64,000 bases of DNA from Cellulomonas palmilytica (lineage in GTDB: Bacteria > Actinomycetota > Actinomycetes > Actinomycetales > Cellulomonadaceae). Position numbers and translations under genes: made by a program. This document shows positions 13,196 through 24,637 of the stretch, piece by piece (position 1 is the first letter of the stretch; each line of letters begins with the position of its first letter). The notes below the pieces were generated by a model, which was not told the DNA's origin, did not search any database, and saw nothing but the letters and a program-made list of their open reading frames with translations. The stretch lies in contig NZ_CP062221.1 of the NCBI RefSeq assembly GCF_021590045.1, forward strand, positions 868,001 through 932,000, read 5' to 3'.

Positions 13196-13422
13196 GCTCG
13201 AACCGTGGCGGGAGAGTCCCGCGAAGCGGGCGCCGAAGGAGCAACCCTCCCCGGGAATCTCTCAGGCCCCCTGTACCGCCACGGCGAGGCAACTCTGGAA
13301 AGCGGCCACCCGCGCGGTGGCCCACCGACGGTGCAAGCCGGCGCGCCCCGGGCTGGGTTCAACGGCCAAGGCGGACCGGCAAAACTCTCAGGTCGTCGTA
13401 CGCGGCGGATGACAGAGCGGGG
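13196..13422 (+). ncRNA. Tandem glycine riboswitch upstream of gcvP
   Basis: Two consecutive glycine aptamers. The first has GCGGGAGAGTCC, CGCCGAAGGAGCAA, the GGGAATCTCTCAGGCCCC block and AACTCTGGAAAGCGG, closed by a 9-bp stem (13203-13211 CCGTGGCGG with 13276-13284). The second repeats the pattern with GACGGTGCAAGCCG, GCCAAGGCGGACCGG, AAAACTCTCAGGT and GATGACAGAGCGG. The two-aptamer form is the classic glycine sensor, and the downstream glycine cleavage genes confirm the ligand. In most known cases glycine turns expression on. Confidence 0.95.
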
Positions 13423-19908: not shown

Positions 19909-21051
19909 TCAGGCGCGCAGGCTGCGCACCACGCGCCCGACCGCCTCGGTGAGGACCGCGCGCGACGTCGCGAAGTTGAGGCGTGCGAACCCCGCACCCG
20001 GGCGGCCGAAGCTCGGGCCCGGGTTGAGCGCGACACGCGCGTCGCGCAGCAGGCGCGCCGCCGGGTCGTCGTCGTCCGGGATCTCGTCACGCAGGTCCAG
20101 CCACGCGAAGTACGTGGCCGCGCCCGCGGTCCAGCGCGTGCGGGGCAGGTGCTCGTCGAGGAGCGCTCGCAGGTGGGCGCGCGAGTCGCGCAGCGAGTCG
20201 AGCAGGGCGTCGAGCCACGCGTCGCCGTGCGTGAGGGCCGCCGTGTGCGCCAGGACGGGGACGTGGCCGACCTCGGACAGGATCGTGGCCGGCAGGCGGT
20301 CGAGGTGCGCGGCGGCGTCCGGGCCCGGGACGGCCAGCGCCGCCTTGAGGCCCGCGAGGTGGAACGCCTTGGACGCCGAGTGCAGCGCGACGGCGTCAGG
20401 GACCACCGTCGTCGCGGAGACGAACGGCACGTCCGGGTCGAGCACGAGCGGCGCGTGGACCTCGTCCGAGACGACCCGCACCCCGTGCCGCACCGCGAGC
20501 TCGCCGAGCGCGCGCAGCTCGTCGGGCGTGTGCACCGCGCCCGTCGGGTTCTGCGGGTGGCACAGCAGGTACGCGGCGCTGCGTCCGCCGGCCCGCGCCC
20601 GCGTGAACGCCTCGTCGAGCGCCGCGAGGTCCAGGCGGCCGTCGGCGCCCAGATCCGCGGTCTCGACGCGACGGCCCGTGCGCCGGACGAACGCACGGAA
20701 CGGCGGGTAGACCGGCGGGTTGATGACGACCGCGCCGTCGGCGTCCGTGAGCAGGCGCACCAGCTCCGCGACGCCCTGCATGACGTCCGGCATCAGCACC
20801 GCCGTCGCCGGGTCGACCGACCAGCCCCAGCGGCGCTCCGCGAACCCCGCGAACGCCTCCTGGTAGGGGCGGCCGTCGACGTAGCCCGTGTCGCCGCGGT
20901 GCAGCGCGTGCATCACCGCCGTGACCACCGGCTCGCACACGCGCACGTCCATCTCCGCGACGAACAGCGGCAGCACGTCCGGCGGGTACCGCCGCCACTT
21001 CTGGCTCGTGCGCGTCCGCAGCTCGTCCAGGTCGACGTCGAACAGGCTCAT
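19909..21051 (-). CDS. MalY/PatB-type cystathionine beta-lyase/aminotransferase
   Basis: Fold-type I PLP enzyme of the MalY/PatB group, 380 residues, predicted C-S lyase acting on cystathionine or cysteine conjugates. The family opening is clear (DELRTRTSQKWRRYPPDVLPLFVAEMD), as are NPTGAVHTPDEL, SDEVHAPLVL and the PLP lysine in LHSASKAFHLAGLK. Start ATG at 21051 fits the family; a longer frame upstream runs through a terminator and is rejected. Location beside metE suits a role in sulfur amino acid metabolism, but a strong hairpin separates the two genes. Confidence 0.9.
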   Translation of the reverse strand: MSLFDVDLDELRTRTSQKWRRYPPDVLPLFVAEMDVRVCEPVVTAVMHALHRGDTGYVDGRPYQEAFAGFAERRWGWSVDPATAVLMPDVMQGVAELVRLLTDADGAVVINPPVYPPFRAFVRRTGRRVETADLGADGRLDLAALDEAFTRARAGGRSAAYLLCHPQNPTGAVHTPDELRALGELAVRHGVRVVSDEVHAPLVLDPDVPFVSATTVVPDAVALHSASKAFHLAGLKAALAVPGPDAAAHLDRLPATILSEVGHVPVLAHTAALTHGDAWLDALLDSLRDSRAHLRALLDEHLPRTRWTAGAATYFAWLDLRDEIPDDDDPAARLLRDARVALNPGPSFGRPGAGFARLNFATSRAVLTEAVGRVVRSLRA

Positions 21052-21127: not shown

Positions 21128-23458
21128 TCAGAGCGTCGCGCGGACCGCCTGCGTCGCCGCGAGCATGTGCTCGAGGCTCGGCGTCGTCTCGTCGTACCGG
21201 CGGGTCTTGAGGCCGCAGTCCGGGTTGACCCACAGCTGGTCGAGCGCGATGGCCTTGACCGCACCCGTGAGCAGCTCGGTGATCTCGTCGACCGACGGCA
21301 CGCGCGGCGAGTGGATGTCGTACACGCCCGGGCCCACCGCGCGCGGGTAGCCCGCCGCCGCGATGTCCTCGACGATCTCCATCTTCGAACGCGCGGCCTC
21401 GATGGACGTCACGTCGGCGTCCAGGCCGTCGATCGCACCCATGATCTGGCCGAACTCCGAGTAGCACAGGTGCGTGTGGATCTGCGTGTCGGGGCGCACG
21501 CCCGAGGTCGCCAGGCGGAACGACCTGACCGACCAGTCGAGGTAGTCGGCGTGGTCCGCCTCGCGCAGCGGCAGCAGCTCGCGCAGCGCGGGCTCGTCGA
21601 CCTGGATCACCGCGATGCCCGCGGCCTCGAGGTCCGCGATCTCGTCGCGCAGCGCCAGGGCCACCTGGTTCGCGGTCTCGCGCAGCGGCTGGTCGTCGCG
21701 CACGAAGCTCCACGCGAGGATCGTCACCGGGCCCGTGAGCATGCCCTTGACCGGCTTGCTCGTGAGCGACTGCGTGTACGTCGTCCAGTCGACCGTGATC
21801 GGCTTCGGCCGCGACACGTCGCCCCACAGGATCGACGGGCGCGTGCAGCGCGAGCCGTACGACTGCACCCAGCCGTTCTCCGTGACCGCGAAGCCGTCCA
21901 GGTTCTCCGCGAAGTACTGGACCATGTCGTTGCGCTCGGGCTCGCCGTGCACCAGCACGTCCAGGCCGATGCGCTCCTGCAGCTCGACGACGCGGCGGAT
22001 CTCCGCCTTCATCTCCTCGACGTACTGCTCGGCGGTCAGCTCGCCCTTGCCGTGCGCCGCGCGGGCCTTGCGGATCTCCGGCGTCTGCGGGAACGAGCCG
22101 ATGGTCGTCGTCGGCAGCGGCGGGAGGTTGAGGCGGGCCGCCTGCGCCTCCTTGCGCTCGTCGAACGAGCCGCGCGCGAACGCGTCGTCGGACAGCGCAC
22201 CCGTGCGCTCGCGCACCTCGAGACGGACCACGCCCGGCGCGGTGCGACGCGACGCGACCGCGTCGGACGCCTCGAGCAGCTGCTCGTGGATCGCCTCGCG
22301 ACCCTCGGACAGGCCCTCGGCGAGCGTGACGACCTCGGTGACCTTCTGGTCCGCGAACGCGAGCCACGAGCGCAGCGTCGGGTCGAGGTTCGGCTCGTCG
22401 GCCGTGTCGTGCGGGACGTGGAACAGCGACGTCGACGTGCCGACCGCGACCGCGCCCGCGCCGATGACCTCGAGCTGCTCGAGGACCTGGAGCTTCGCGT
22501 CCAGGTCCGCGCGCCAGATGTTGTGGCCGTCGATCACGCCCGCGACGAGCGTCTTCGACTCCAGGCCCGCGACCGCCTCGGTGGGCGCGGAGCCCTTGAC
22601 CAGGTCCAGGCCGATCGCCTCGACGTCGCTCGCCGCGAGCACCGGCAGCGCCGCGCCCAGGTCCCCGTACGGGGCGGCGACGAACAGCGCGGGGCGCTGC
22701 GGGCGCGCGAGCTCGGTCGACAGCACGCGGTAGGCGTCCGCGGTCGCCGCGAGCAGCCGCTCGACGGGCACGTCGATGCTCTCCGAGACGAGCGCCGGCT
22801 CGTCGAGCTGCACCCACGTCGCGCCCGCGGCCGCGAGGTCGCGCAGCAGGTCCGCGTACACCGGCAGCAGGTCGTGCAGGCGGTCGATCGGGGAGAAGTC
22901 CGCGGGCGAGCCCTCGGTCGCCTTCGCGAGCGCCAGGTACGTCACGGGGCCGACGACGACCGGGCGGGTCAGCACGCCGTCGGCGAGCGCCTCGACGAAC
23001 TCCGCGACCGGGCGCGTGCCCACGTACGAGAACGTCGTCTCGGGGCCGATCTCCGGGACCAGGTAGTGGTAGTTCGTGTCGAACCACTTGGTCATCTCGA
23101 GCGGCAGGTCGTCGCCGCGGCCGCGCGCGACCGTCGAGTAGCCCGCGAGGTCGAGCGTGCCGTCCTCGCCGACGAGGTCCGCGAACCGGGCCGGGATCGC
23201 GCCGACGACCGCGGTCGCGTCGAGCACCTGGTCGTAGAACGAGAACGCGCTCGGGATCGCCGGGACGTCCGTCGGCAGGCCGAGCTCGACGAGCCGGTCA
23301 CGCGTGCGCTTGCGCAGCGCCGCGGCGGTCGCCTCGACCTCGTCGGCCGTGGACCTCCCGGCCCAGAAGGCCTCGATGGCCTTCTTGAGCTCGCGGCGCG
23401 GCCCGATGCGCGGGTAGCCCAGCACGGAGCCGGTCGGGAACTGCGGGGTCTCGCTCAT
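21128..23458 (-). CDS. metE: Cobalamin-independent methionine synthase
   Basis: 5-methyltetrahydropteroyltriglutamate-homocysteine methyltransferase, 776 residues, full length. The N-terminal domain starts GYPRIGPRRELKKAIEAFWAG. Zinc ligands are visible in the C-terminal barrel: THLCYSEFGQI (His and Cys) and VNPDCGLKTR (Cys). It takes the methyl group made by MetF, whose gene lies 60 bp upstream on the same strand, so the two form an operon behind the SAM riboswitch. No cobalamin riboswitch is present. Confidence 0.96.
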   Translation of the reverse strand: MSETPQFPTGSVLGYPRIGPRRELKKAIEAFWAGRSTADEVEATAAALRKRTRDRLVELGLPTDVPAIPSAFSFYDQVLDATAVVGAIPARFADLVGEDGTLDLAGYSTVARGRGDDLPLEMTKWFDTNYHYLVPEIGPETTFSYVGTRPVAEFVEALADGVLTRPVVVGPVTYLALAKATEGSPADFSPIDRLHDLLPVYADLLRDLAAAGATWVQLDEPALVSESIDVPVERLLAATADAYRVLSTELARPQRPALFVAAPYGDLGAALPVLAASDVEAIGLDLVKGSAPTEAVAGLESKTLVAGVIDGHNIWRADLDAKLQVLEQLEVIGAGAVAVGTSTSLFHVPHDTADEPNLDPTLRSWLAFADQKVTEVVTLAEGLSEGREAIHEQLLEASDAVASRRTAPGVVRLEVRERTGALSDDAFARGSFDERKEAQAARLNLPPLPTTTIGSFPQTPEIRKARAAHGKGELTAEQYVEEMKAEIRRVVELQERIGLDVLVHGEPERNDMVQYFAENLDGFAVTENGWVQSYGSRCTRPSILWGDVSRPKPITVDWTTYTQSLTSKPVKGMLTGPVTILAWSFVRDDQPLRETANQVALALRDEIADLEAAGIAVIQVDEPALRELLPLREADHADYLDWSVRSFRLATSGVRPDTQIHTHLCYSEFGQIMGAIDGLDADVTSIEAARSKMEIVEDIAAAGYPRAVGPGVYDIHSPRVPSVDEITELLTGAVKAIALDQLWVNPDCGLKTRRYDETTPSLEHMLAATQAVRATL

Positions 23459-23518: not shown

Positions 23519-24490
23519 TCAGCGGGCCTTGCCGTCCAGCTGCGCGCCCTCGAGCAGGTCGAGCGCGGCCTCGTGCTTGTTGTAGGTGTAGACGTGCACG
23601 CCGGGCGCGCCGCCGTCGAGGATGCCCTTGACGAGGTCGACGCCCGCGCGCGTGCCGATGCGGTGCCGCGCCAGCGGGTCGTCCGCCGCGCCCAGCGCGT
23701 CCAGCAGGTCCCGCGGCACCGGGACACCCGTGAGCTCCTGCGTGCGCAGCAGCCGGGCCGGGTCGGTGAGCGGGATGATCCCGGGGATGATCGGGATCAC
23801 GACGCCCGCGTCACGTGCCTCGGCCACCAGGCCCAGGTACGCCTCGGCGTCGTAGAACACCTGCGTGATCGCGAAGTCCGCGCCCGCCTGCTGCTTGGCC
23901 AGCAGGGAGGCGACGTCCTGCGCGCGCGTGCCGCCGGTGGCCGCGTTGCCGCGCGGGAACGCCGCGACCGCGACCGACAGCGGACGCACGCGAGCGCGCA
24001 CGGCCTGCGCGGGGCTCGCGCCGCAGCGGCGCGACTCGATGTCCCGCAGGAGCCCGACGAGCTCGCTCGCCGTCTCCAGGCCCTCGGGGTGCGCCTGCCA
24101 GTCGGTCTGCCCCGCGGGCGGGTCGCCGCGCAGCGCGAGGAACGAGCGCACGCCCTCGTCGAGGAACTCCTCGACGATCGTCGTGATCTCGTCGCGGCTC
24201 GTCCCCACGCACGTGAGGTGCGCGATGGGGGACAGCGACGTCTCGCGCAGCAGGCGGGACACGAACGCGCGCGACGTCTCGCGCGTCTTGCCCGACGCGC
24301 CGTACGTCACCGAGACGAAGTCCGGGTGCAGCGACTCCAGCTGACGGACCGTCTCCCACAGCCGGGGCGCGGCCTGCGGGTTGCGGGGCGGGAAGAACTC
24401 GAACGAGAGCGTCGGGCGGTCGAGCGTGCCCAGCGGGCGCGGCTCGGGCGCCACGTGCGCCGCGGGCGGGTTCACGGTTGCCGCGCTCAC
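23519..24490 (-). CDS. metF: Methylenetetrahydrofolate reductase
   Basis: Reduces 5,10-methylene-THF to 5-methyl-THF for MetE. 323 residues with the MetF opening LSFEFFPPRN, then FVSVTYGASGKTRE, LTCVGTSRDEI, LALRGDPPAG and FAITQVFYDAEAY. The GTG at 24490 forms a GTGA overlap with the stop of a 12-codon leader ORF that has a strong ribosome binding site; metF itself has no good site. The frame stays open upstream through the riboswitch, but that stretch is non-coding in character. Control is expected through SAM (see the riboswitch). Confidence 0.93.
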   Translation of the reverse strand: MSAATVNPPAAHVAPEPRPLGTLDRPTLSFEFFPPRNPQAAPRLWETVRQLESLHPDFVSVTYGASGKTRETSRAFVSRLLRETSLSPIAHLTCVGTSRDEITTIVEEFLDEGVRSFLALRGDPPAGQTDWQAHPEGLETASELVGLLRDIESRRCGASPAQAVRARVRPLSVAVAAFPRGNAATGGTRAQDVASLLAKQQAGADFAITQVFYDAEAYLGLVAEARDAGVVIPIIPGIIPLTDPARLLRTQELTGVPVPRDLLDALGAADDPLARHRIGTRAGVDLVKGILDGGAPGVHVYTYNKHEAALDLLEGAQLDGKAR

Positions 24491-24525
24491 GCCAGCGGTC
24501 CGTTCAGACACAGGGTCTGCGACAT
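24487..24525 (-). CDS. 12-codon leader ORF coupled to metF
   Basis: MSQTLCLNGPLA, starting at ATG 24525 with GGAG 5 bases upstream (24534-24531). Its TGA overlaps the metF GTG as GTGA. The Shine-Dalgarno partly lies in the 3' strand of the riboswitch P1 stem. Its length, placement and signals suggest a translated coupling leader rather than a functional peptide. It is too short for homology support. Confidence 0.6.
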   Translation of the reverse strand: MSQTLCLNGPLA

Positions 24526-24532
24526 GTCGACT

Positions 24533-24623
24533 CCATCGGTCCTGGCGGAAGCACCCACACCCTCGTCGCGGAGGGGGGTTGCTGCGGCGTCGACGAGCCA
24601 GGTCTCTCGGCCGCTCTGGATGG
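24533..24623 (-). ncRNA. S-box (SAM-I type) riboswitch upstream of metF-metE
   Basis: Read on the minus strand: P1 5' strand CCATC (24623-24619), then CAGAGCGG, CGAGAGACCTGGCTCGTCGA, the invariant GCAACC (24582-24577), a CCCTC/GAGGG P3, GGTGCTTCC and the P1 3' strand GATGG (24537-24533). Order and identity match the SAM-I core (AGAGaGG, GAGGGA, TGGCCC, GAtGA, GCAACC, GGTGCtaattCC). The following genes make methionine. P1 overlaps the leader Shine-Dalgarno, so SAM binding should block initiation. SAM-IV is the main alternative. Confidence 0.88.
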
Positions 24624-24631
24624 TTGGCGTG

Positions 24632-24637
24632 ATCGTA
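24632..24637 (-). promoter_or_regulatory. Candidate -10 box for metF-metE
   Basis: TACGAT on the minus strand, about 8 bases before the riboswitch P1 stem. The -35 region is weak (GGTCAG at 17-bp spacing). The predicted transcript would begin almost at the first aptamer base. Confidence 0.4.

Follow-up and report, generated by a model that had tools for sequence, protein, structure and literature searches.

The metF Locus

The window, that is, the whole stretch of 64,000 nucleotides of Cellulomonas palmilytica DNA that was analyzed, carries on its minus strand a SAM-I (S-box) riboswitch aptamer, a 12-codon mini-ORF, metF, and, after a gap of 60 nt, metE (table 1). The original prediction of a SAM riboswitch ahead of metF is borne out by the covariance search, in which the RF00162 match (E-value of 3e-8 over the window and of 2.4e-10 over a short stretch) passes its cut-off, the class named here being that of the best family of the clan, which is all that such a scan gives, with the scores of SAM-I/IV and SAM-IV lying outside the comparison. 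SAM-I riboswitches are built of P1–P4 around a junction. In the alignment of the window aptamer, P1–P3 are present and the P4 region, at one model pair, is almost absent; P1 has five standard pairs, the three outer model pairs of the RF00162 alignment being non-standard. The product of metF matches PF02219 (cut-off 24), scores 246 bits against NCBIfam TIGR00676, below the equivalog cut-off of 293.7, and has its nearest named relative among the matches listed in C. persica (99%). The predicted metE downstream of metF was likewise recovered.

Table 1. Coordinates of the riboswitch, mini-ORF, and genes at the metF locus of the window.
Feature	Position	Strand	Basis
SAM-I (S-box) riboswitch aptamer	24530..24626	-	RF00162 49.2 bits, gathering cut-off 44.4
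P1 5' strand CCATC	24619..24623	-	sequence and alignment
P1 3' strand GATGG	24533..24537	-	sequence and alignment
Shine–Dalgarno GGAG, two G in common with P1	24531..24534	-	sequence
Mini-ORF (proposed relay ORF) MSQTLCLNGPLA, 12 codons	24487..24525	-	ATG at 24525, TGA 24489-24487
GTGA stop/start overlap of mini-ORF and metF	24487..24490	-	sequence
metF, methylenetetrahydrofolate reductase, GTG start 24490-24488	23519..24490	-	PF02219 240.9 bits
metE, B12-independent methionine synthase	21128..23458	-	NF003556 1049.2 bits, TIGR01371 986.5 bits, both over cut-off
Putative -10 hexamer TACGAT (TANNNT)	24632..24637	-	recurrence upstream of P1 in relatives

The junction between riboswitch and mini-ORF reads as had been described: the aptamer ends in GATGG and the next bases complete GGAG, which stands five bases ahead of the ATG of the mini-ORF. 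The stop of the mini-ORF does overlap the metF start in GTGA, and no GGAG, GAGG, or AGGA is read ahead of the metF GTG in the window, in agreement with the claim that metF has no ribosome binding site of its own. The statement that P1 covers the start site holds for the first two G of the Shine–Dalgarno, which lie in P1, and was too strong beyond that, because these two G are all that P1 takes and the start codon lies 7 nt past it.

Between 23300 and 24900, no intrinsic terminator was found on the minus strand, nor any promoter by a sigma-70 consensus scan. A TANNNT hexamer is nevertheless found within 30 nt upstream of P1 at 132/132 loci, against 16/132 in one shuffle, and lies 13–15 nt ahead of P1 at 119 of the 132; because of this recurrence, the transcript probably starts just ahead of the aptamer. 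Elsewhere in the window, a PatB C-S lyase-like gene (19909-21051, minus strand; TIGR04350 252.5 bits, below the cut-off of 340; also PF00155) lies downstream of metE on the same strand, and a glycine riboswitch aptamer (RF00504, 69.8 bits) is found at 13199-13288 on the plus strand.

Distribution of Mini-ORF and Direct-Start metF Loci

In 79 of the 81 Cellulomonas genomes examined there is a SAM-I match, which passes the cut-off in 77; MetF is found at an E-value of 1e-30 in 78. These gave 79 metF leaders, one genome having two, in which a mini-ORF stands between riboswitch and metF at 51 loci, metF itself starts directly behind the riboswitch at 27, and no aptamer was found at 1 (G052). The 51 overlaps are ATGA in 24 cases and GTGA in 27. 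The rest of the family, covered by 12 of its 24 other genera, gave 60 metF loci among the matches listed: 37 with a mini-ORF (all 37 in frame +1, with ATGA or GTGA), 17 direct, and 6 set aside before counting. Of these 6, two are unclear loci of genus g9 (G152 and G151, the latter showing an ORF of a single residue that opens with GTG), and four belong to genus g24, where the aptamer pattern was not matched. In another family of the same order (f13), SAM-I is present in 24/24 genomes, and 16 of its 30 SAM-I loci precede metF by pattern, all 16 with a mini-ORF (15 ATGA, 1 GTGA); one metF-like locus whose frame is broken in the record (L328/G466) and 13 SAM-I loci ahead of other genes were left out.

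Overall, the two families provide, among the matches listed, 148 clear loci, 104 relayed and 44 direct. All 104 mini-ORFs stand in the same frame (+1) relative to metF and overlap its start codon by RTGA, which is either ATGA or GTGA, and no mini-ORF in frame +2 was found among the 104 loci. Relayed examples include C. persica MSQTLCLIGPLA and C. gelida MSQTSCLNGPSA, as well as C. biazotea, C. humilata, five Oerskovia, and two Luteimicrobium species, and direct starts occur in C. hominis, C. citrea, C. triticagri, and Sanguibacter inulinus. The mini-ORF of the original prediction is thus widely kept in related genomes, with its overlap, and is not universal: the 44 direct loci, where metF itself takes its place, keep riboswitch control, and the relay is therefore not required for that control. 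Two direct metF genes have two Cys in an N-terminal extension (L020 of G013, MTDRPCPDGTDRCPTG, and L179 of G027, MTDRPRCPRGADVCPPG), and these extensions look as if a mini-ORF had been fused to metF.

The search pattern for loci was GATGG with A or G as the next base, and mini-ORF starts were assigned by rule as the first ATG, else GTG or TTG, within about 20 nt past GATGG. Because of this selection, the P1-adjacent Shine–Dalgarno is partly built into the set, and its presence as a 4-mer ahead of the mini-ORF at 88/88 loci (the mini-ORF loci among the matches listed) is nearly a matter of construction; frame and RTGA overlap were not part of the selection. At these same 88 loci, metF has a Shine–Dalgarno 4-mer ahead of its start in 14 and none in 74, an alternative in-frame metF start with a Shine–Dalgarno-like 4-mer exists in 4, and the overlap reads RTGAGC in 71. 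The computed openness of positions -12 to +9, a rough figure drawn from different fold contexts, is lowest at the metF start of these loci (0.34, n = 88), higher at their mini-ORF start (0.47, n = 88), and highest at the direct metF starts of Cellulomonas (0.52, n = 27). By eye, the mini-ORFs of MSQT type also carry a CAGAC-N5-GTCTG inverted repeat, which pairs in the computed fold.

Constraint on Frame, Overlap, and Peptide

The overlap taken singly is not rare by chance: when metF coding sequences are read out of frame, frame +1 RTGA occurs at 1322 of 2800 start points (47%), these points not being independent of each other. For this reason, genomes were not counted as independent, and the case rests instead on repeated changes in length. 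The shortest mini-ORF has 6 codons and the longest 43. Among the 51 of Cellulomonas, length changed at least 21 times on the MetF tree, which was built from 279 nt and has 35 of its 76 inner branches open, and frame and RTGA were kept every time. Only about a third of free indels would keep the frame, and even at the 47% rate, a run of 21 changes that all keep frame and RTGA is very unlikely to arise by chance.

The peptide follows a different regime. Its single changes comprise 36 synonymous and 101 non-synonymous substitutions (27 disjoint pairs), for a neutral expectation of 44.4 ± 5.3 synonymous, and we regard the mini-ORF peptide as neutral and not conserved. Judging from the alignments, then, the peptide itself seems to be of no importance while the overlap is kept, as one would predict for a relay that depends on ribosomes translating the frame and terminating, whatever the product.

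On the same tree, six switches between relayed and direct forms are required, three of them being forced by well supported branches. One direct start (G008) lies within the MSQT clade of mini-ORF genomes, and another (G119), the sole direct one among 13 loci of genus g5, has its first residues in common with the mini-ORFs of its sisters; from these placements, it seems that one state turns into the other when the 5' end of the gene is fused or split.

Proposed Mechanism and Alternative Explanations

On this basis, we consider it likely that the SAM-I riboswitch gates the start of a relay ORF and that metF, together with metE, is fed mainly by ribosomes restarting at the ATGA/GTGA overlap. When SAM is bound, P1 would close and occupy two G of GGAG, hindering initiation at the mini-ORF, and with the mini-ORF unstarted, metF would be left unserved. 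When SAM is lacking, the mini-ORF would be translated, and ribosomes terminating at the overlap would reinitiate at metF. The signal would then be an open frame with its stop on the metF start, and not the peptide. Comparison of the loci establishes, at the level of sequence, the aptamer, its geometry, the kept frame and overlap, the neutral peptide, and the usual lack of a metF Shine–Dalgarno, and the predicted coupling of metF through the stop/start overlap draws its support from the uniformity of the 104 mini-ORFs. From the known behavior of SAM-I and from the ppe2 precedent described below, we infer SAM binding, switching between P1 and Shine–Dalgarno, mini-ORF translation, reinitiation, and dependence of metF on it. 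As in ppe2, the Shine–Dalgarno of the upstream ORF overlaps the riboswitch, here through the two G of GGAG, which would serve in switching.

Could the mini-ORF be an accidental, untranslated frame, the riboswitch acting on metF or its mRNA in some other way? The neutrality of the peptide, the ease with which single overlaps arise, and the 44 loci that do without a mini-ORF would all fit, but an accident does not account for RTGA in frame +1 at 104/104 loci, for the lack of any frame +2, for a frame kept through 21 or more changes of length on the MetF tree of Cellulomonas, or for the 74/88 loci at which metF has no Shine–Dalgarno 4-mer, and we judge it distinctly improbable. A relay through Rho, in which translation of the mini-ORF would shield a C-rich leader and the SAM-bound RNA would be terminated by Rho, is favored by the failure to find an intrinsic terminator in the stretch scanned and by the composition of the 88 mini-ORFs (C 0.37, 0.50, and 0.49, and G 0.34, 0.27, and 0.34 at codon positions 1–3). 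Such termination is compatible with reinitiation as an added layer; acting alone it would not need an exact ATGA/GTGA overlap, and as a replacement for the proposed mechanism it is unlikely. Lastly, frameshifting or stop suppression across the overlap might yield a mini-ORF–MetF fusion protein, in line with the minor uPPE2–PPE2 fusion product mentioned in the accessible text of PMC11260477 and with the direct starts of G008 and G119, whose nearest relatives have mini-ORFs, as if the two had been fused. Purifying selection on the mini-ORF peptides, which this would lead one to expect, is not seen, and production of a fusion protein appears extremely improbable.

The Cys codon of the leader had also been put forward as a possible second sulfur-linked signal, SAM gating the mini-ORF and stalling at one or more Cys codons reporting cysteine. 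In Cellulomonas, Cys does occur in 44/51 mini-ORFs and makes up 66 of 992 residues, against a mean of 19.5 and a maximum of 33 in 500 shuffles; it accounts for 14/130 residues in genus g4 and 4/56 in g17, is found in 6/16 mini-ORFs of family f13, and a true Cys-attenuator leader (NF042934) lies behind SAM-I in family f15. Yet 7 of the 51 Cellulomonas mini-ORFs have no Cys, its frequency is near chance in g5 (10/347 residues) and g15 (7/260), it is lacking from all 7 mini-ORFs of g11, g13, and g16, and across sister comparisons it is retained in 27/43, the same as other residues. Part of the excess may come from the frame itself, as shifted-frame reading yields Cys at 6.1% of residues in the metF core (427/7031) and 4.5% in direct N-terminal extensions (31/695); the extensions of mini-ORF genomes give 2.0% (38/1875), and because these controls are mixed, the frame can account for no more than part of the Cellulomonas excess. 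A cluster-weighted Cys frequency of 0.036 over nine clusters falls within shuffles (mean 0.027, maximum 0.058 of 300), a measure that is uninformative for Cellulomonas itself, all 51 rows of which went into one cluster. Three metF mini-ORF peptides of relatives gave no match to leader-peptide families, NF042934 included, up to an E-value of 1, the 12-mer of the window being too short for a profile scan and not among the three. A cysteine signal at metF thus fails on retention and on most other genera, in which Cys is mostly not enriched, and is quite unlikely, the Cellulomonas excess being not fully explained. The preferred reading remains gating of a relay ORF whose peptide carries no signal.

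Relation to Known Systems

The closest precedent is ppe2 of Mycobacterium tuberculosis, for which the accessible text describes a B12 riboswitch controlling uPPE2, with PPE2 starting on the stop of that uORF at AUGA, lacking a Shine–Dalgarno, and depending on termination–reinitiation shown experimentally (Kipkorir 2024, PMC11260477). As far as that text goes, the order of riboswitch, uORF, and stop/start overlap, with a downstream gene devoid of Shine–Dalgarno, is common to both systems. They differ in that ppe2 involves B12, a class IIb variant, and another gene, whereas here a SAM-I P1 overlaps the Shine–Dalgarno, and in that the metF arrangement spans many genera, offers direct-start relatives as a natural comparison, and is predicted from sequence comparison.

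SAM-I aptamers whose ribosome binding site lies in the 3' side of P1, and which would act on translation, are described in the consulted part of Barrick and Breaker 2007 (PMC2258182), and translational control by SAM-I in Xanthomonas in that of PMC7270179. The metF loci share with the former the aptamer class and the overlap of P1 and ribosome binding site, and with the latter the aptamer class and, as proposed here, translational control; they have in addition a mini-ORF ahead of metF, when the terms "uORF" and "leader peptide" are absent from the available text of PMC2258182, and "uORF", "mini-ORF", "ORF", and "coupl" from that of PMC7270179. In its accessible portion, Korolev 2016 (PMC4833913) reports leader genes, also in Actinobacteria, that raise expression by ribosome reinitiation. 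There too a short leader ORF feeds a structural gene, but the leaders presented are non-overlapping, with a peak at a distance of 10–11 bp, and come without a riboswitch, whereas metF mini-ORFs overlap their gene. In actinobacterial cys operons, Cys leader peptides with successive Cys codons close to their stop (Seliverstov 2005, PMC1262725, in the part available) are likewise short ORFs ahead of sulfur genes (NF042934); unlike them, the metF mini-ORFs that were scanned do not match NF042934, and their peptides are not conserved.

The arrangement had been called unusual. That holds with a qualification: its logic had already been demonstrated by experiment for the ppe2 B12 riboswitch (PMC11260477), and a ribosome binding site in P1 was known (PMC2258182), at least from the accessible texts of both; what appears to be new is SAM-I as the riboswitch class for this relay logic, along with broad comparative evidence. 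No report of the SAM riboswitch/mini-ORF/metF arrangement was found in the literature among the matches listed, often the best 10–20 of more, which took in few subscription papers. If our reading is true, riboswitch control through a disposable relay frame would be no one-off but a lasting arrangement, inherited across dozens of species. Sister species with direct and relayed forms would also open the costs and benefits of the relay to simple swaps, and annotated metF starts behind riboswitches in GC-rich bacteria may mask the start codon that is truly regulated.

SAM-I Leaders ahead of Other Genes

In family f15, a leader ending in VDLLRTASA(A/T)CR is present in 11 of the 12 SAM-I genomes, the SAM-I match itself being over cut-off in 6/12. 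The leader begins at the Shine–Dalgarno adjacent to P1 at L337-L344, L346, L347, and L287, and a similar one is seen at L273 and L278; L336 (G251) was read through L287, and L345 (G359) was left out. Both f15 leaders that were tested against NF042934 (cis_reg_atten) exceed its cut-off, and the one downstream gene tested (L338) has the sulfite/nitrite reductase domains PF01077 and PF03460. L273 matches NF042934 and has no Cys, and L278 falls under its cut-off. The f15 arrangement is possibly a leader responding to two signals, SAM plus cysteine.

From these families, we would tentatively propose, as an idea that we find plausible and fall short of favoring, that the start site next to P1 of SAM-I serves several actinobacterial families as a modular docking point, where a target gene, a relay ORF that passes ribosomes to metF through RTGA whatever its peptide, or the f15 Cys leader may be placed, and that small changes, in-frame or fusing, carried lineages from one state to another with riboswitch control kept. 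If so, the docking of a Cys leader before sulfite/nitrite reductase in f15 would amount to a two-signal gate for SAM and cysteine.

Two further observations concern rhodanese genes. The C. palmilytica genome (G000) has a second RF00162 match (contig C1:80958-81056; L001:1501-1599), which precedes a rhodanese-domain gene (PF00581) with a direct start behind the riboswitch. At two loci of family f13 (L316 and L327, in G344 and G357), a Cys-containing mini-ORF with an ATGA overlap lies ahead of a rhodanese-like gene.

A separate lead comes from the P3 loop of the aptamer. In genera g5, g8, g13, g15, g16, g17, and g22 and in family f13 (metF loci in L206-L265 for the genera and L306-L333 for f13), an AAGCCT motif in this loop (GGAAGCCUCC) is accompanied by AGGC closely following the start codon next to the riboswitch. 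Across the 148 loci, both elements are present in 49, neither in 90, and one only in 9, and none of 78 Cellulomonas loci has the motif. A pseudoknot between the loop and the early ORF, trapping the start codon, is possible, and the motif and AGGC may also simply have been inherited together. A simple complementarity test of loop versus AGGC did not rise above shuffled controls except in genus g22, where the partner is GGCTTCC instead of AGGC.
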